From: Spirochaetota bacterium
Lineage (GTDB): Bacteria > Spirochaetota > Spirochaetia > Treponematales > UBA12059
Length of the DNA stretch: 37,973 nucleotides
Assembly (NCBI GenBank): GCA_029548805.1
Contig: JAKPMS010000147.1
Span: 1-37,973, forward strand
Direction: 5' to 3'
The notes below the pieces were generated by a model. That model made no database searches and had not been told where the DNA came from. It worked only from the letters and a program-made list of their open reading frames with translations. The stretch's first letter is position 1, and each line of letters begins with the position of its first letter. Shown here piece after piece: positions 1-7,724 of the stretch. The position numbers and the translations under genes were made by a program.

Positions 1-497
1 TAGTCAAATCCGGGCTGGGACGCATTTATCGGATATCCTCCGGTGTAAAGATAAACTACTCCCCGTATTATATACATCATTCCAAGGGTTACAATAATTG
101 GCACAATGTGTATCTTTGCAGCCAAAACTCCGCTAACCAGCCCTACAAGGGCTCCAACAGAAAGGGAAGCCAATATGGCCAGTGACCAATGCCAGCCTAG
201 ATCACGCTGTATCCCCATGCATATTGCAGCAGAAAGAGCCAGGATAGAGCCGACAGAAATATCAAAGCCGCCGCCAATGATTACAAAGGTTGTGCCTATA
301 GCCATAATGCCGACTATGGAGCTTTGGCGCAAAATATTAAGAACATTGGTCCTGCTAAGAAAATTGGGTGTCAAAACGGATACCAGAATTGACAGGATTA
401 CAAAGATGATCAGTATCCCGTTTTTTTTAAACAGCTCCTTTGCCGCAAATTCCAGGTTTTTCCGAGATTTTATTCCATCGGTATATTTATTAAACAT
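1..497 (-). CDS. RbsC-family sugar ABC transporter permease, 5' part (3' end outside window)
   Basis: This is the N-terminal 165 codons of an inner-membrane permease of the ribose/galactose (RbsC/MglC) family, which forms the channel of a type of ABC importer with one tandem ATPase and a periplasmic binding protein. Translation from ATG at 497 gives MFNKYTDGIKSRKNL, a hydrophobic segment at about residues 29-46, then the family motif with GGGFDISVGSI at about residues 88-98 and the VTLGMMYIIRG block near residue 139. The start is set by CTGGAGG seven bases upstream. It overlaps the end of the ATPase gene by 8 bases, so translation is probably coupled. The gene runs off the left edge, so the C-terminal membrane segments and further operon members are not visible. 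Family assignment is firm; the transported sugar is unknown. Confidence 0.9.
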   Translation of the reverse strand, partial: MFNKYTDGIKSRKNLEFAAKELFKKNGILIIFVILSILVSVLTPNFLSRTNVLNILRQSSIVGIMAIGTTFVIIGGGFDISVGSILALSAAICMGIQRDLGWHWSLAILASLSVGALVGLVSGVLAAKIHIVPIIVTLGMMYIIRGVVYLYTGGYPINASQPGFD

Positions 498-1989
498 TAT
501 TAACCTCCAGCATGGCGTTCAGAAGCTCCCGTTCCAAGGGTTTTGTATCGTACTGCTTTTTTATTTTGCCTTTTTGCATAACCATTATGCGGTCGGCCAC
601 GGCAAGAATTTCTTCAGGTTCTCCGGAACAGTAAATAATGCTGTTTCCTTTTTCGCTAAGCTGCCTGACCATATTGTATAATTCGCTTTTTACTCCCACA
701 TCCACTCCTCGTGTGGGTTCATCCAGAATAAGGATGCCGGGAGCAGCCATAAGCCATCTGCCTAGCACGCATTTCTGCTGGTTCCCGCCGCTAAGGTAAC
801 GGGCCTTCTGCGTAAGGCTGCTGTAGCTGGTCTGAAGCCTGTCCAGTTCTGCTTTAACCGCCAGCTTTTCCTTCTTTTTTGAAATGATGCCATGACGACT
901 GAAGCGTTTCAGGGAAGGAAGGCTTACATTAAAGCCAAGATCATGATCCAAAAACAAGCCCTGGGTTTTCCTGTCTTCGGGAGCCAGTCCTATGCCAAGC
1001 TTTATAGCCTTGTTGGGATTTTTCAATATTACAGGCTGCCCGTTCAGTTCAATTTGACCGCCATGCACTATTTTTGCTCCAGCCAGAGTGTTGGCCAGCT
1101 CGCTTTTGCCTGAACCCACAACTCCCACTATGCCCAATACTTCGCCAGGGTAAAGGTCAAAGTTTATAGCGCTGAATTCGTTTTTCCTGCTCAGGTTTTT
1201 TACACTGAGCCTGGCGGTTTTGCTGACATGCTTTCTTTCTTCTGCTTCCCGGGTCATGATTTCTTTGCCCAGTATTAGGTTCACAATATGAAAGGTAGAC
1301 AGCCCTTTTGCTGGCAGGGTATCTATAAGCTGTCCGTCACGCAAAACCGTTACCGTATCCGCTATTTTTGCCACTTCTTCAAGAAAATGGGTTATGTAAA
1401 CAATGGTTATACCAGCATTTTTCAGTTCAAGAATTAGTCTGAAAAGCGAATCAACTTCATTTTTGCTCAAAGAGTCCGTTGGCTCATCCATTATGATGAT
1501 GGAGCTGTTCCTGGATACGGCTTTCATAATTTCCACTAGTTTTTTTTCGGCAGATCCCAATTCGCGCACTATTTTGTCAGGGGCAACATTGACATTAAGT
1601 TTTTGCGCAAGCTGATTATACTTTTTTAGCATCGTCTTTTCATCCAGTATAAAGGACGCCTTTTTGTATTCCCTTGCCATAAATACATTCTGCAGTGCGG
1701 TTGATGTTGGTATAAGGCTGGTCTCCTGGTGCACTACGGCAATACCGGCATTGAACGAGTCAATGGGACTTTTAAAGGAGCAAGCTTGGCCATTTATTTT
1801 TATGCCGCCCCTGTCCGGAAGATATACCCCGGTAGCAACTTTGATTAGTGTGGACTTGCCCGCACCATTGGCTCCAAGCAGGGCGCGTATTTCTCCCTTG
1901 CCAACAGAAAAGTCAATATTTTTTAAAACGTCAACTCCAGAAAAACTTTTGTATATTCCCGACAATTCAATAGCTTCTATGCCTGACAT
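490..1989 (-). CDS. Sugar ABC transporter tandem ATPase (RbsA/MglA family)
   Basis: This 499-residue cytoplasmic protein has two ATPase domains, the normal length for RbsA/MglA, and would energise the permease encoded just downstream. Domain 1 has the P-loop GANGAGKST (residues 39-47), an altered signature (LGSAEKK, about 144-150), Walker B IIIMDEP and an intact switch histidine in YITH. Domain 2 has a P-loop in GVVGSGKS (289-296), a good LSGGNQQK signature (399-406) and ILILDEPTRGVDVG. A degenerate first signature is usual in this family. The start at 1989 was preferred over an upstream in-frame ATG at 2031 because AAGGAA lies at proper distance and because 2031 would overlap the previous gene; from 1989 the gap is 17 bases. 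It is the third visible gene of the operon that begins with the binding protein. Confidence 0.93.
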   Translation of the reverse strand: MSGIEAIELSGIYKSFSGVDVLKNIDFSVGKGEIRALLGANGAGKSTLIKVATGVYLPDRGGIKINGQACSFKSPIDSFNAGIAVVHQETSLIPTSTALQNVFMAREYKKASFILDEKTMLKKYNQLAQKLNVNVAPDKIVRELGSAEKKLVEIMKAVSRNSSIIIMDEPTDSLSKNEVDSLFRLILELKNAGITIVYITHFLEEVAKIADTVTVLRDGQLIDTLPAKGLSTFHIVNLILGKEIMTREAEERKHVSKTARLSVKNLSRKNEFSAINFDLYPGEVLGIVGVVGSGKSELANTLAGAKIVHGGQIELNGQPVILKNPNKAIKLGIGLAPEDRKTQGLFLDHDLGFNVSLPSLKRFSRHGIISKKKEKLAVKAELDRLQTSYSSLTQKARYLSGGNQQKCVLGRWLMAAPGILILDEPTRGVDVGVKSELYNMVRQLSEKGNSIIYCSGEPEEILAVADRIMVMQKGKIKKQYDTKPLERELLNAMLEVNNV

Positions 1990-2006: not shown

Positions 2007-3200
2007 TTAATTTTCTGCCATAGACATGCATTCAAGATTCTTGTCCGGAATATGCAACAGGTTCCAGCAGGCAGCTATATTCTCCCCGCTCAATGAACTT
2101 AAATAGTTCTTGCAATTCCGGTCCGAAATTTTTGTTTCATACGCGGGATGGTTTACCAGTTCAATTCCGGCATACAAAAAATTGTTATACTTTTGCAAGG
2201 CCTTTTTGCACTGGCTTTTTGCTTTTATGAATTCACTGCCGGCCAAAGCTTCTTCAAACGTCCTGTTATCCATGTTTTTTGACAATTCCTCTTTGCCCAA
2301 TCCGGAAATGGCAGATGTAAAAGCCAGAGCCTGCTTGATAGGGACTTCCAAAGCTGTAAGATTTTTTACAAAAACATAAAACTCAAGGGGCAGTCCCGCT
2401 ACAGCATTAGCCTTGGTATAAAGCATTGGTTTTATAAAATCGCATTGCCCTTGCAAAAGCTTGTAATCTTGCGCCACAAGCAAAGATAAAGCCGGAGCAA
2501 AAAGGTCCAGGCCGACTTCCATTCCTTGCTTCTTTGCATTTGCCCGGTAGATTCCGCATATCTCATAAATTGTGTTGTTTCTGAAAGCTATAAGGTCGCG
2601 GCACTCCTTCATAAACAAGCTGGCGCCTTTAGCCCCGTCCTTGGCCAATAAAGCGGCATTTTCCGCCATATCGGGCAGGGCCTTGCCATACTGCTCCTTG
2701 TAGCGGCCGGAACATTGGCTGCAGCGGCATGATCCAAAATATTCAAAACCGTTTGATGGCGCAGGGTATCGTATCCTGTCCAAAAACAAAGAATCCACAC
2801 CAAGCTGCCTTGCCCTGTCAAAAGACAAGGCTACGGCTTTTTCGTCCTTTAGATAATGGCTTGGACAGGAAAAAGAGAACTGTTCGCCGCCTTCTTCCAT
2901 TTTTTTCCAGGAAACCAAATTTTTAAAATTTTTGAATTTGTTAGATGGAATAAACAATTCCGAACTTGAATAAGGATTGTCCGCAAGAACCATGGTCCAC
3001 AAGGATACTTTTACTTCATGGCTTTTAAGAATTTTTATAAGTTCCAGCACAAAGTCCGAATCGAGTCCGTAAACAGACAAAAAGCATCTTTCAAAACGGA
3101 CAAGTTCCAGGGCGGAAAGCAATTTGCTGATAATTGTTTCCTTGCCAAAAAGCCCAAGCTCGACGGGGCTAAGCATAAGCTGTACTGCATAAGAAGGCAT
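2007..3200 (-). CDS. Putative TIM-barrel glycoside-hydrolase-like protein, unknown substrate
   Basis: I do not recognise this 397-residue protein with certainty. It has no signal peptide, so it is probably cytoplasmic. Residues around 130-180 resemble glycoside-hydrolase-like TIM barrels: FDRARQLGVDSLFLDRIRYP is followed by a CxCxxC cluster (CRCSQC) and a GRYKEQYG segment. An acidic LDLFAPALS strand follows later, as in barrels with catalytic Asp/Glu at strand ends. It sits between the binding protein and ATPase genes of a sugar importer, so a role in cutting or modifying the imported compound is a reasonable inference. The CxCxxC cluster could bind zinc. The start is supported by AAAGGGG upstream. 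Alternatives are a sugar-sensing or isomerase-type barrel. Confidence 0.55.
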   Translation of the reverse strand: MPSYAVQLMLSPVELGLFGKETIISKLLSALELVRFERCFLSVYGLDSDFVLELIKILKSHEVKVSLWTMVLADNPYSSSELFIPSNKFKNFKNLVSWKKMEEGGEQFSFSCPSHYLKDEKAVALSFDRARQLGVDSLFLDRIRYPAPSNGFEYFGSCRCSQCSGRYKEQYGKALPDMAENAALLAKDGAKGASLFMKECRDLIAFRNNTIYEICGIYRANAKKQGMEVGLDLFAPALSLLVAQDYKLLQGQCDFIKPMLYTKANAVAGLPLEFYVFVKNLTALEVPIKQALAFTSAISGLGKEELSKNMDNRTFEEALAGSEFIKAKSQCKKALQKYNNFLYAGIELVNHPAYETKISDRNCKNYLSSLSGENIAACWNLLHIPDKNLECMSMAEN

Positions 3201-3311: not shown

Positions 3312-4259
3312 CTAGAATTCCGGCACTATTTTGTCCACATTCTTTTTATCGACAATTACCGGCTCAACACCGACAAAGGTTGGTACCTTTTCACCTTTAA
3401 GGACTTTTACAGCTGTTTCAACAGCGGAAAATCCCAGGTCCGCAATAGACGCATTGGTTGTCATGTCCACCTGGCCGTTTTTTATGTAAGGCTTTACAGA
3501 AGCGGAATACTCAAGACCGGTAACATGCTTGTTCTTTAAACCGGCATCCTTAATGGCCATAGCCGCAGCAATGGCGCCGTCATACCATTGGCATGATACC
3601 AGGTCAAAAGGCTGCTTGGTCTGGATGAATGCTTCCATGGCTGCAAGTGCGCCCTCTTTGGTCCAGCCGTCAATAGCCTTTCTGTATACAACTTTGTACT
3701 TTGGATACTTTTTCAGTTCAGTTTCAAAGCCTTCTGTTCTTTGGCGCTGGGGCCCTGTTCCGGGATTGCCTTCTATAAGAACAATATTGGCTTCTTTGTT
3801 TCCTAAAATTTTGTTGGCCATCTGGGCCATCATTACTCCGTAGTTGTAATCACTTATTCCAATAAAGGTAATGATTCCGGGATAGGAGCCATCGGCATTG
3901 GGGCCAAGCATATTAGTAAATGTAACCAGAGGAATTTTAGCATCATTACACAGTTTTATAGCAGGCATGAGAGCCATGTTGTCTGCAGCACACAACATTA
4001 TCATGTCCACCTTGCGTGCAACAAAGTCTTCCACCTGGTTGAGCTGTTTGCCGGGATCCCATTCCGCATCCGCATAAACAAGACTTACATTGAACTGGGA
4101 AGCGGCCTTGTCCATACCCTTTCTCTGAACAACAAAAAACTCCACACTGCCAGGGAGTGATACTCCTATGATAGGTTTTTTTGCCTGCGCAAAGATAGGC
4201 TCTGCGGCAAAAGACCCCAGTATAAGGACTGCGGAAACAAGCAACAAAATGCGTTTCAT
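3312..4259 (-). CDS. Periplasmic sugar-binding protein (RbsB-like, Peripla_BP_4)
   Basis: This 315-residue protein would capture a sugar or sugar-like ligand in the periplasm and deliver it to the RbsC-type permease. It opens with MKRILLLVSAVLILG and a signal peptide ending near FAQA; no lipobox cysteine is present. The mature part begins KKPIIGVSLPG, the first strand of the two-lobed RbsB fold, and contains EDFVARKVDMIMLCAADN and NIVLIEGNPGTGPQRQRTEGF, both typical of the family. ATG at 4259 was chosen over ATG at 4265 because the AGGAG box directly abuts the latter but is six bases from the former. It is the first gene of the importer operon and lies about 25 bases downstream of the start site predicted for the sigma-54 promoter at 4295-4310. 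Ligand unknown. Confidence 0.92.
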   Translation of the reverse strand: MKRILLLVSAVLILGSFAAEPIFAQAKKPIIGVSLPGSVEFFVVQRKGMDKAASQFNVSLVYADAEWDPGKQLNQVEDFVARKVDMIMLCAADNMALMPAIKLCNDAKIPLVTFTNMLGPNADGSYPGIITFIGISDYNYGVMMAQMANKILGNKEANIVLIEGNPGTGPQRQRTEGFETELKKYPKYKVVYRKAIDGWTKEGALAAMEAFIQTKQPFDLVSCQWYDGAIAAAMAIKDAGLKNKHVTGLEYSASVKPYIKNGQVDMTTNASIADLGFSAVETAVKVLKGEKVPTFVGVEPVIVDKKNVDKIVPEF

Positions 4260-4294
4260 TAACATCTCCTTTAAGTTAAGCTGCTAAACTGAAA

Positions 4295-4310
4295 TGCAAA
4301 ATTCATGCCA
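4295..4310 (-). promoter_or_regulatory. Sigma-54 promoter (-24/-12) of the importer operon
   Basis: The minus strand reads TGGCAT-GAATT-TTGCA against the sigma-54 consensus TGGCAC-N5-TTGCW, one mismatch and exact spacing. The -12 C falls at 4296, so transcription should begin near 4284, about 25 bases before the binding-protein ATG. The adjacent divergent gene encodes an NtrC-class activator with an intact GAFTGA loop, the partner such a promoter requires. Confidence 0.78.
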
Positions 4311-4402
4311 ACACTGATAAGCCGCTTTTGCTCACCAAATTCGGGTTTAAAAATTAAAAAATGGTTTTATGCTGTTTTTTTTTGCCATAAGCATGGATAA
4401 AA

Positions 4403-4422
4403 CTGTGCAAAAAATGGCACAG
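4403..4422. promoter_or_regulatory. Palindrome 1, candidate activator (UAS) site
   Basis: CTGTGC and GCACAG arms flank an 8-base AT-rich centre. The centre is about 128 bases upstream of the predicted sigma-54 start site, in the normal range for enhancer sites of NtrC-class activators. Its right half overlaps a weaker sigma-54-like match on the plus strand at 4415-4430. Confidence 0.65.
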
Positions 4423-4432
4423 CCTTAGCAGG

Positions 4433-4452
4433 CTGTGAAAAAACAATCACAG
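4433..4452. promoter_or_regulatory. Palindrome 2, candidate activator (UAS) site
   Basis: CTGTGA and TCACAG arms flank an 8-base AT-rich centre. It matches palindrome 1 at 15 of 20 positions and its centre is exactly 30 bases away, close to three helical turns, so two activator dimers could bind one face. The centre is at about -158 from the importer start site. Confidence 0.65.
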
Positions 4453-4510
4453 TAGATTGCAGTATTTTTATCGTTGCAGGTTGGAAAAATAGTATATACT
4501 GGGCTGGTAC

Positions 4511-5920
4511 ATGAAAATTCTTGTTGCAGACGACGAAAAGCTTTTAAGGTCTTCCCTTTTGGAAATTTTTGCAAATTGGGGTTATGAAGGCTGCCCGGCC
4601 AAGGATGGACAGGCTGCCATCCAGCTTCTTTCTGCCCAAAAGTTCGATCTTGCTATAATAGATATAAGAATGCCAGGTATAGGCGGCATGGATTTGCTCC
4701 AAAAAATCAGGGCAATGGACGCAAACCTGCCAGTGATCATGATGACCGCTTACCCTTCTGTAGATACTGCAGTTATGGCCATGAAATATGGAGCCATGGA
4801 TTTTTATTCAAAACCCCTGGATCTGGCCAAACTAAAGACGGAACTTGAGCGCTACTCATCTGCAGACCATGCCAGAAAGAAAAATACCGGAGCTAAAGCT
4901 TTGTCCTTTCTTGACGGAGAAAGCCCCGTAATGGAAGAACTGCGGGCCAACATAAAACGCATTGCTCCGACCAATGCCCCTGTTATAGTCAGCGGAGAAA
5001 GCGGAACTGGCAAGGAGCTTATTGTAAGAAACATTCACGCCCTGTCCAAGCGTTCATGCAAAGTGATGCTGGATCAAAACTGTGCGGCCATTCCGGATAC
5101 CCTTTTGGAAAGTGAAATTTTTGGCCATGAAAAAGGAGCTTTTACCGGTGCCGAAGCCAGAAAGCCGGGCTTAATTGAAAGAGCCGAAGGCGGAACCATT
5201 TTTCTGGACGAAATAGGAGACATGGACATACGCCTGCAGGCAAAACTATTAAGAGTTCTTCAGGATGGAGACTACAGGCGCCTTGGTGGCAGCGAATGCC
5301 TCAAGGCCGATGTAAGAATAATCGCGGCTACAAACAAAAACCTGCTTGATAAAATAGCAAAAGGAGAATTCCGGGAAGACCTGTACTACAGGCTGTCAGT
5401 CATTTGTATTCATGCCCCTCCTTTACGGGACAGAAAAGAGGATATACCCGTATTGGCAAACAAGTTTGCAACGGAGTTTGCATTGCGTTACGGAAAAGAA
5501 CCTCCGGGCATAGATAAAGACTTGCTGCTGCTATTGATGAGGCAGCGCTGGCCGGGGAATGTGCGTGAACTCAGAAATTGCATGGAAAGGGCCGTGATTT
5601 TCAGCGACGGAAATAAAATAGGACTTGAACATATCCCTTCACAATACAAGATCCAAAACCACAACATGGAAGTTTTGCCTTTGCCTTCATTGCCAGATAA
5701 TTTAGCGCCCGATTCAGAAGCAAAAACAGCAAGCGAAAAAAGAGACTCCGGTACCATCCTTTCAGGGGCCAGAAAAAACCTGGAAAAACACATGCTGCTG
5801 GAAGCGCTCAAACAATCAGACGGAAACAGAACCAAGACTGCAGAAATACTGGGAATACACCGCAGGACCCTGTATTACAAATTAAAAAAATACGGAATGC
5901 TTGAAAATGACAATTCTTGA
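4511..5920 (+). CDS. NtrC-class sigma-54-activating response regulator
   Basis: This 469-residue DNA-binding regulator has the three NtrC domains in order. The receiver (1-115) has acidic residues D7/D8, phosphoacceptor D51 in IIDIRMPG, T79 and K101. The AAA+ domain has Walker A GESGTGKE (162-169), the sigma-54-contacting loop GAFTGA (209-214) and Walker B IFLDEI (230-235). A Fis-type helix-turn-helix closes the protein (NRTKTAEILGIHRRTLYYKL, about 440-460). When phosphorylated it should open sigma-54 promoters. It overlaps the downstream kinase gene by 14 bases, so that kinase is its likely partner, and it is divergent from an importer operon with a sigma-54 promoter and two palindromes. A weak GGGCTGG precedes the ATG. 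TTGCAG (4474) and TATACT (4495) form a poorly spaced possible promoter close to the ATG. Confidence 0.95.
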   Translation: MKILVADDEKLLRSSLLEIFANWGYEGCPAKDGQAAIQLLSAQKFDLAIIDIRMPGIGGMDLLQKIRAMDANLPVIMMTAYPSVDTAVMAMKYGAMDFYSKPLDLAKLKTELERYSSADHARKKNTGAKALSFLDGESPVMEELRANIKRIAPTNAPVIVSGESGTGKELIVRNIHALSKRSCKVMLDQNCAAIPDTLLESEIFGHEKGAFTGAEARKPGLIERAEGGTIFLDEIGDMDIRLQAKLLRVLQDGDYRRLGGSECLKADVRIIAATNKNLLDKIAKGEFREDLYYRLSVICIHAPPLRDRKEDIPVLANKFATEFALRYGKEPPGIDKDLLLLLMRQRWPGNVRELRNCMERAVIFSDGNKIGLEHIPSQYKIQNHNMEVLPLPSLPDNLAPDSEAKTASEKRDSGTILSGARKNLEKHMLLEALKQSDGNRTKTAEILGIHRRTLYYKLKKYGMLENDNS

Positions 5921-7724
5921 ATTGAGGGATCTTTACTCAACAATAAACGGAAATGAAGTTTTGTCCGGCGCCAGCTGCTCCTTTGAAGCGGGAAAAATCC
6001 ACGCTATCCTGGGAGAAAGACGCTCTGGCAAAAGCGCAATAGCCTTTCTTCTGTCCGGGCTGGCAAAAATATCCAAAGGCAGCCTGTATTATAACAACAA
6101 GGATTATGCAAAACCAAGGCGCTTCCAAAGCCAGAAACCGGACATAGGCATTTTTTTTCAGGATACAGCCATTATTCCCAGCCTTAATTCTTATGAAAAT
6201 GTGCTGGCTGGCAGGGGGCAGATGGGTCTTTACAAAGCGGCGCAGCTTGACGAAGCCAAAGCCTGGCTGGACAAGCTGTCCCGTCAATGGAACAGCTCTT
6301 TCAATTATAAAACCAGGACCAGGTATTTAGGCCAACGTGAACAAAGCATTGTGGAACTTGCCAGATGTCTGGCCTTCAACCCGCTTATTCTTGTACTGGA
6401 CGAGCCGGCAGGAAGGTTTACTGCCGACGAACTGGTTGAGCTGTATTCACTTTTAAAAGAATGCAAAGAAAGCAATATTGCTGTTGTTTATATTGCAACC
6501 AATGTAAATGAAGTATTCCAGATAGCTGACCAGGTATCCGTTATGCGTCATGGCAAAATTGTGGATACAAGAGACGTAAAGGCGCTGGACCGGCACAGGC
6601 TCATTGACCTGGCCTATTCCTTCAGCGAAACCAGGGAAGAGCTGTTGCTTAAAAATATCGAGCTGCTGAAATATTCGCGTTACAGCGAAGAGCTTGTTAT
6701 GAATCTTCCCGTTGGAGCCATAATAATTGACGAAAACAAGGCCCCTTATTTAATAAACCAACAAGCCGGCAAATTGTTGGGAATGGGTTCGGATGAATCT
6801 TTTAAGGGGCAAGGAGGCTTTGAAAAACTGGAAGCAACAATCCTGGAGCCGGTAAAAAGCGAACTTATACAGGCTATACAAGAAGGCAAAAAGAGGTCCT
6901 GGGACAAGAGCTATACCATAGACGGAAAAATATTGAACATTCTTACCTTTCCATTCCATGACTCCAGCAGCTTGCTGCTAGGCACCATAATCGTTCTGGA
7001 CGACATAACACAAAGTATTCTTACCCAGGAATACCTGGTAAGAGCCGAAAGGGCATCCTCAATAGCGGAGCTGGCTGCAGGGGTTGCACATGAAGTTAAC
7101 AATCCGCTAGCAATAATATCCAATTATGTGGAACTCTTAATTATGAAAAAGCAGGGAGCCTATACGAGCGACAGGCTTGAAATAATAAGAGATGAAATAA
7201 AACGTATACAAACAATAGTAACCAGCCTTCTTTCTTTTTCTGCCATAGGTATTAGCGGACTGGAAATATTGGACCTTGCAGAACTTATAGATGCATCCGT
7301 CATGCTTTTATCCCATGAGGCGCAGCGCAGGGCCATAGAACTTAACAAAGAAATAGCCATTGCTCCGCTTATGGCCAAAATTGATCCGGCAAAAATCAAA
7401 CAGGTAATTATCAACCTTGTAATCAATGCAATGGAAGCCATTGAAAAAGGTGGAAAAATAGTAATAAGGCTGTTGGCGCCCGACCCGGATAAAGCGGATA
7501 CAGTAAAGCTGGAAATAGAAGACAACGGGCCTGGCATTCCACAAGAAGTAATGAACCGGATATTTGAACCTTTTATCCAGGGCAAAAAGAAAAAAAACCA
7601 TTCCGGGCTTGGACTTTCTGTAAGCAAGCACATAGTGGATTCACACTCAGGTACCATAAGCTGTGACAGCAAACCGGGGAAAACACGCTTTACCATCGAG
7701 CTTCCGACAGGAATTGTCCCATAA
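5907..7724 (+). CDS. Hybrid sensor: ABC ATPase-like domain + PAS-like domain + NtrB-type histidine kinase
   Basis: This 605-residue protein has an unusual architecture. Residues 1-235 are an ABC ATPase-like domain: P-loop GERRSGKS (36-43), Q-loop FFQD (Q85), a degenerate signature (YLGQREQ, 140-146) and Walker B LVLDEP (162-167). The switch histidine is lost: YIATN stands where the importer ATPase has YITH. Residues about 259-370 look PAS-like (LPVGAIIIDENKAPYLINQQAG). The kinase follows: H-box with H395 in AGVAHEVNNP, N-box INLVINAMEAI (502-512), G1 EDNGPGIP (538-545), GLGLS (567-571). No membrane segment or signal peptide is evident. The ABC domain most resembles domain 1 of the RbsA-type ATPase, including IADQVSVMRHGKIVDT. 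ATG at 5907 was preferred to TTG at 5901. It should phosphorylate the overlapping NtrC-class regulator. I infer that the ABC-like domain senses the importer or nucleotide state rather than driving transport. Confidence 0.9.
   Translation: MTILELRDLYSTINGNEVLSGASCSFEAGKIHAILGERRSGKSAIAFLLSGLAKISKGSLYYNNKDYAKPRRFQSQKPDIGIFFQDTAIIPSLNSYENVLAGRGQMGLYKAAQLDEAKAWLDKLSRQWNSSFNYKTRTRYLGQREQSIVELARCLAFNPLILVLDEPAGRFTADELVELYSLLKECKESNIAVVYIATNVNEVFQIADQVSVMRHGKIVDTRDVKALDRHRLIDLAYSFSETREELLLKNIELLKYSRYSEELVMNLPVGAIIIDENKAPYLINQQAGKLLGMGSDESFKGQGGFEKLEATILEPVKSELIQAIQEGKKRSWDKSYTIDGKILNILTFPFHDSSSLLLGTIIVLDDITQSILTQEYLVRAERASSIAELAAGVAHEVNNPLAIISNYVELLIMKKQGAYTSDRLEIIRDEIKRIQTIVTSLLSFSAIGISGLEILDLAELIDASVMLLSHEAQRRAIELNKEIAIAPLMAKIDPAKIKQVIINLVINAMEAIEKGGKIVIRLLAPDPDKADTVKLEIEDNGPGIPQEVMNRIFEPFIQGKKKKNHSGLGLSVSKHIVDSHSGTISCDSKPGKTRFTIELPTGIVP

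Follow-up and report, generated by a model that had tools for sequence, protein, structure and literature searches.

A sigma-54 promoter, paired dyads and an ABC-ATPase/histidine-kinase fusion at a spirochaete importer operon

The stretch of DNA analysed here (hereafter the window, 37,973 nt in full) comes from a Spirochaetota genome. At its left end, an importer operon is encoded on the minus strand, and a regulator gene and a kinase gene are encoded divergently from it on the plus strand. The locus contains the following genes and features:

3..497, minus strand: importer permease (BPD_transp_2), truncated by the contig end; domain match
490..1986, minus strand: RbsA-type two-domain importer ATPase; domain and family match
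2007..3200, minus strand: O397, an uncharacterised 397-aa protein; in all five orthologous operons
3312..4259, minus strand: periplasmic sugar-binding protein (Peripla_BP_4), at the head of the operon; domain match, with the start codon and SD taken from the sequence
4295..4310, minus strand: sigma-54 -24/-12 promoter of the importer operon, TGGCATGAATTTTGCA; importer-facing counterpart in 54/62 divergent relatives
4403..4422, no strand: proximal dyad of a putative enhancer, CTGTGCAAAAAATGGCACAG, centre about -127; exact-match search and relatives
4433..4452, no strand: distal dyad of a putative enhancer, CTGTGAAAAAACAATCACAG, centre about -157; exact-match search and relatives
4511..5920, plus strand: NtrC-class response regulator with REC, sigma-54 activation domain with GAFTGA, and HTH_8; domain matches, predicted to bind the dyads
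5907..7724, plus strand: ABC-ATPase/histidine-kinase fusion, with ABC (aa ~3-235), PAS-like (~261-366), HisKA (His395) and HATPase_c domains

The divergent gene, which an earlier note on this DNA had taken for the regulator that binds the dyads, encodes an NtrC-class regulator; it combines a REC domain carrying the phosphoacceptor Asp (D51, invariant), an AAA+ domain with GAFTGA in the window protein, and a C-terminal Fis-type HTH. It misses the NCBIfam cut-off for AtoC (445.2 of 714 bits). The end of this gene is overlapped by the start of the next, which encodes the most unusual part of the system, the 605-residue fused kinase. Residues 2-235 of the kinase align to residues 3-236 of RbsA with 131.9 bits, leaving the 745-bit RbsA cut-off unmet; there is one N-half-like NBD rather than the two fused NBDs of a full RbsA-type ATPase. 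The remainder is a HisKA-class kinase by its motifs (H395, N503 and GLGLS), which misses the NCBIfam cut-off for AtoS (219.1 of 646 bits), and among the NCBIfam models listed none reaches its cut-off for the fused kinase. Across the family, fused kinases retain His395, the N-box, Walker A, the Q-loop and Walker B.

In the AlphaFold model (mean pLDDT 81.7, pTM 0.46), the ABC and kinase domains appear individually supported, while their relative placement is not. Foldseek placed each part with a different set of PDB entries, one with kinases and the other with ABC ATPases, and the best PDB sequence matches likewise span one part of the fusion at a time. Pfam found no membrane domain in the kinase, and its maximum 19-residue hydropathy was 1.78, compared with 2.55 for the permease. 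The kinase is thus predicted to be soluble, without an obvious membrane helix, although this hydropathy test is a rough one.

Within the order, about 10 of 394 genomes encoded a full-length fusion, as did 16/393 genomes sampled across the phylum. A scan of GTDB genomes added many Spirochaetota MAGs, together with five loci in Bacterium UASB270 (Vecturithrix) and two in candidate division KSB3. MAGs bearing the labels Desulfovibrio, Olavius symbiont, Gynuella and Bacteroidia contributed one locus each; binning errors may account for some of those labels. After removal of duplicates, we retained 84 systems with a regulator, mostly from Spirochaetota and some from KSB3/Vecturithrix. All of the first 35 loci (35/35) have RbsA-type importer genes next to the regulator and fused kinase. 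The same holds for nearly every fusion in the larger set, where the clear exceptions with adequate flanks were L141 and L155. UASB270 carries at least five fused-kinase loci (L141, L142, L177, L198 and L212), and hence several importers per cell may each own a kinase-regulator pair. We found no description of an ABC-ATPase/histidine-kinase fusion in the literature or in family libraries. Subscription journals were mostly not covered and absence is not proof, but a soluble histidine kinase with an ABC ATPase as its sensor appears to be undescribed so far.

The earlier note had proposed that a near-consensus -24/-12 element precedes the importer operon, and a pattern search of the whole window bore this out: TGGCAYN5TTGCW is matched perfectly at a single place, 4295-4310 (minus strand). 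The element reads TGGCAT-GAATT-TTGCA; it keeps the GG and GC of TGGCAY-N5-TTGCW at exact spacing, as expected of a sigma-54 promoter. Its distance from the binding-protein gene needs correction. As read from the sequence, the most likely start is the ATG at 4259, with SD AAAGGAG, rather than 4265, which places the promoter 36-51 bp upstream of the start instead of the 25-50 bases first given. The importer transcript is predicted to start near 4285 (minus strand); there are no transcript data. A genome lacking a sigma-54 gene would have refuted the proposal, but rpoN is encoded in the source genome (E=2.3e-54). Across this 2.39-Mb genome, the perfect pattern occurs 21 times, compared with once for a reversed control, and a perfect -24/-12 therefore looks like a used signal.

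The relatives point the same way. We counted -24/-12 elements that lie no more than 420 bp from the regulator and reach a score of 18 or more out of 21.2, and found an importer-facing element in 54/62 unique loci where the regulator is divergent from the importer; same-length tiles of coding sequence carry one in 2.6% of cases. Several co-directional loci have a sigma-54 site between the kinase and the importer.

Other perfect -24/-12 elements in the genome precede different kinds of genes. Two of them, L122 (G000:C57:21375-21390) and L125 (G000:C97:4561-4576), lie 22-23 bp upstream of genes with N-termini resembling those of sigma-70-family sigma factors, reminiscent of the Borrelia RpoN-to-RpoS cascade. 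Another (L118, G000:C27:3477) precedes an apparent AtoE-like transporter, and another (L123, G000:C64:4303) an apparent small heat-shock protein.

Two 20-bp palindromes with centres 30 bases apart had also been noted, and these are the sole exact matches in the window: CTGTGM-N8-KCACAG occurs without mismatch only at 4403-4422 and 4433-4452. Their centres, 30 bp apart, lie at about -127 and -157 relative to the start predicted near 4285. The earlier note had asked for a genome-wide search for the 20-bp dyad, which returned three exact matches in 2.39 Mb, two in this gap and a third elsewhere, on contig C3. The inner arms of the two dyads can form an 8-bp hairpin followed by T6 (4418-4437, minus strand), which is probably a by-product of the dyads.

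We defined the tandem form as TGTG-N10-CACA-N6..18-TGTG-N10-CACA (dyads within 24-36 bp). It occurs once in 99 related genomes, here, and four times in 393 Spirochaetota genomes, where two of the occurrences precede ABC-kinase/importer systems. The second match lies in the regulator-importer gap of the ABC-kinase system L111 (genome G522). A match in G514 (L218) falls within a repeat in coding sequence and was attributed to chance, and the fourth, in G555 (L220), is hairpin-like by its printed sequence; its surroundings fell outside the analysis.

Absence of the dyads from relatives would have counted against their being operators. In a tree of the kinases, the window forms a clade with L032 and L069 (support 1.0), joined by L156 and L096 (support 0.99), and in all five members a TGTG-N10-CACA dyad precedes the -12 of the importer promoter by 114-213 bp. 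The dyads are TGTGCCATTTTTTGCACA and TGTGATTGTTTTTTCACA in the window, TGCGCCATTTTTGGCACA in L032 (one mismatch), TGTGCCGGTATCGGCACA in L069, TGTGGAAAAAATGCCACA in L096 and TGTGCAAAATTTTGCACA in L156. Shuffled regions hold a dyad with at most one mismatch in 4-12% of cases. By eye, each of the five also has a second half-site 30-33 bp away, which is degenerate in the four besides the window. The spacing is specific: in a set of 67 upstream regions and three longer ones, 11 loci contained 15 TGTG-N10-CACA matches, while the other spacings from 4 to 16 gave one match altogether.

We also used a test that ignores the half-site sequence and requires two like dyads 28-35 bp apart. At this spacing, 17/67 loci were significant (p<=0.05), compared with 4, 4 and 2 for control spacings. 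In most of the significant pairs the spacing is 30-33 bp; the pairs sit about 113-190 bp upstream of the -24, and their half-sites include TGTGC, TGGGG and TGAGA. The window itself reached p=0.079, more than half of the 67 loci had no significant pair, and a PWM pair scan at strict thresholds was uninformative for most loci. The claim of pairing stands for the 30-33 bp spacing and for part of the wider family, while in four of the five clade members the second site is degenerate. Judging by these results, the paired-dyad architecture is kept while the recognition sequence drifts across relatives, which is what would be expected if each regulator reads its own dyads.

The orthologous operons of the clade share more than the dyads. 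Within the family, the loci where O397 turned up are the window, L032, L069, L096 and L156; Pfam gives only a sub-threshold match to DUF4015 (putative glycosyl hydrolase), and the L156 copy also matches GH18 below threshold, which may hint at the imported sugar. In L032 and L069, the regulator and fused kinase lie within the importer operon, downstream of the importer, whereas the layout in the window is divergent. The divergent arrangement is thus not essential, and in those two operons the regulatory genes acting on the sigma-54 promoter would themselves be transcribed from it.

Other readings of this intergenic DNA have to be weighed. The earlier note suggested that a plus-strand match, TGGCAC-N5-TAGCA at 4415-4430, is a second sigma-54 promoter through which the regulator controls itself. 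The match is present and good (19.7 of 21.2), but its -24 half is part of the proximal dyad, and this overlap explains the site. Regulator-facing elements occur in just 4/62 divergent relatives, no more than background; given that 54/62 loci have an importer-facing element, the autoregulatory promoter is not supported and we consider it very unlikely. It is more improbable still that the dyads are sites for the CRP/FNR family (TGTGA-N6-TCACA), with the importer under catabolite control and the divergent regulator incidental. The half-sites of the distal dyad (TGTGA/TCACA) do look like CRP half-sites, but the CRP spacing, TGTG-N8-CACA, is found nowhere in the family's upstream regions, where the N10 spacing is found 15 times, and on this ground we reject such sites. 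Moreover, the dyads are positioned around -127 and -157 relative to a sigma-54 promoter, and their distribution follows the ABC-kinase clade. We give almost no credence to the idea that the inner dyad arms are an intrinsic terminator (CACAGCCT-GCTA-AGGCTGTG then T6, minus strand) and not operators. There is one terminator-like match, at 4437-4418, but 0.4 such matches are expected by chance per region, there is no minus-strand gene upstream for it to terminate, and in other dyad carriers the inner sequence forms no hairpin while the dyads themselves are kept. Control of the importer through sigma-54 and paired dyads, as originally proposed, is supported by this comparative evidence (promoters in 54/62 loci, dyads in 5/5 clade members), although binding of the regulator to the dyads, its dependence on phosphorylation and its polarity as an activator are inferred, without biochemical data.

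What the ABC domain of the kinase does is less clear. Among the 84 kinases, the Walker A Lys, Q-loop Gln and Walker B Asp are each conserved in 84/84, the catalytic Glu in 76/84, the H-loop His in 58/84 and the signature glycine in only 5/84. The kinases of the window, L032 and L069 have Arg at the fourth Walker A position and lack the H-loop His. We initially took the loss of the LSGGQ glycine as decay towards a dead ATPase; this was withdrawn, as the N-halves of the importer ATPases are similarly degenerate, retaining the signature glycine in 30/82 compared with an intact signature in 82/82 C-halves. The N-halves otherwise keep Lys (82/82), Gln (81/82) and His (82/82), while the C-halves have Arg for Lys in 65/82 and Glu for Gln in 71/82. 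By its motif pattern, the ABC domain of the kinase thus resembles an importer ATPase N-half, and we think that it may imitate the N-half and read the transporter.

A plain ATP sensor is not excluded by this. The domain could be unrelated to the importer, acting as a general ATP/ADP sensor or dimerisation module that signals cellular energy, and the conservation of Walker A and Walker B in 84/84 kinases does make nucleotide binding likely. The statistical link to the permease is also weak: the partial Mantel value between ABC domain and permease was 0.12 (p=0.012), compared with about 0 for the kinase domain, but the value for regulator and permease was similar to that of the ABC domain, and the signal was lost when the ATPase was also controlled for. 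This coevolution evidence is not decisive. Against a general sensor, the motif pattern is specifically that of an importer ATPase N-half, including the Q-loop Gln in all 84, and the fusion adjoins an RbsA-type importer in nearly every locus. We regard the general sensor as unlikely, though a serious contender. Over the 64 loci with complete gene sets, distances between kinase domain and regulator correlated at 0.86, compared with about 0.35-0.4 between kinase or regulator and the importers, suggesting that the signalling module is reused with different importer subtypes.

Parts of this system resemble known ones. AtoC and AtoS are the best NCBIfam matches of the regulator and kinase, and AtoS-AtoC/atoDAEB of E. 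coli likewise has an NtrC-class regulator; AtoC binds a pair of inverted 20-bp sites that precede a sigma-54 promoter (PMC3118216), the same layout as here. However, the target in the window is a CUT2 importer, both proteins fall below the curated cut-offs, and the kinase has an ABC ATPase domain where AtoS has a periplasmic sensor. In BceRS-BceAB and PstSCAB-PhoU-PhoR, an ABC transporter signals to a two-component system, which in turn controls the transporter's own genes (PMC6978683), and the proposed control here is likewise transporter-informed. There, the kinase is a separate membrane protein, whereas in the window the ATPase domain is fused to a soluble kinase with a sigma-54 output; the transmembrane helices of a BceS-type kinase are lacking by our rough test. 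CrbS-type kinases are also joined to a transporter module, an SLC5 membrane symporter domain (PMC5715377), while the window kinase carries only a cytoplasmic ATPase domain. Residues 2-235 of the kinase share the N-half motif pattern of RbsA/MglA-type importer ATPases, but these are followed by PAS-like, HisKA and HATPase_c domains and there is a single NBD.

Activation of sigma-54 promoters via paired NtrC-type sites is textbook: the phosphorylated regulator assembles on the sites and remodels sigma-54 polymerase by looping. From the promoter, the dyads and their conservation, the protein domains, the intact motifs and the constant gene association observed here, we think it probable that the system as a whole serves a CUT2 (RbsA/B/C-type) importer as a transport-coupled two-component switch, with sigma-54 output. 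This reading comes from sequence analysis, without binding, phosphorylation or transcript data. The soluble kinase would sense the importer, or the importer's ATP state, through an N-terminal ABC domain that imitates the ATPase N-half, and would phosphorylate the NtrC-class regulator encoded directly upstream. The regulator would oligomerise on the two dyads, whose centres (about -127 and -157) are separated by three helical turns; the DNA would loop, and the AAA+ ring would open sigma-54 polymerase at the -24/-12. The operon activated in this way would be that of the binding protein, O397, ATPase and permease.

That the ABC domain docks on the permease is inferred from motif pattern and gene association only, and we put it somewhat short of an even chance. 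A broader form, which we hold just as tentatively if not more so, is that the fused kinase takes the position of an importer NBD, either docking on the permease or pairing with the intact-signature C-half of RbsA; the ABC domain has the intact Walker A lysine and Q-loop, and the degenerate signature, of an RbsA N-half.

For spirochaete regulators that remain unstudied, these results predict an operator: pairs of TGTG-N10-CACA, 30-33 bp apart. Apparently undescribed until now, the arrangement is present at 84 distinct loci; almost all of them adjoin an importer of this class, and a sigma-54 promoter usually accompanies it. If the fused kinase does take an NBD position, the catalytic cycle would be read directly as kinase activity, by a class of sensor built from a transporter ATPase. 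If the ABC domain docks on the permease, it would provide a simple, genetically portable readout of transport activity, and the 84-locus family would offer a defined set for testing how ABC importers signal.
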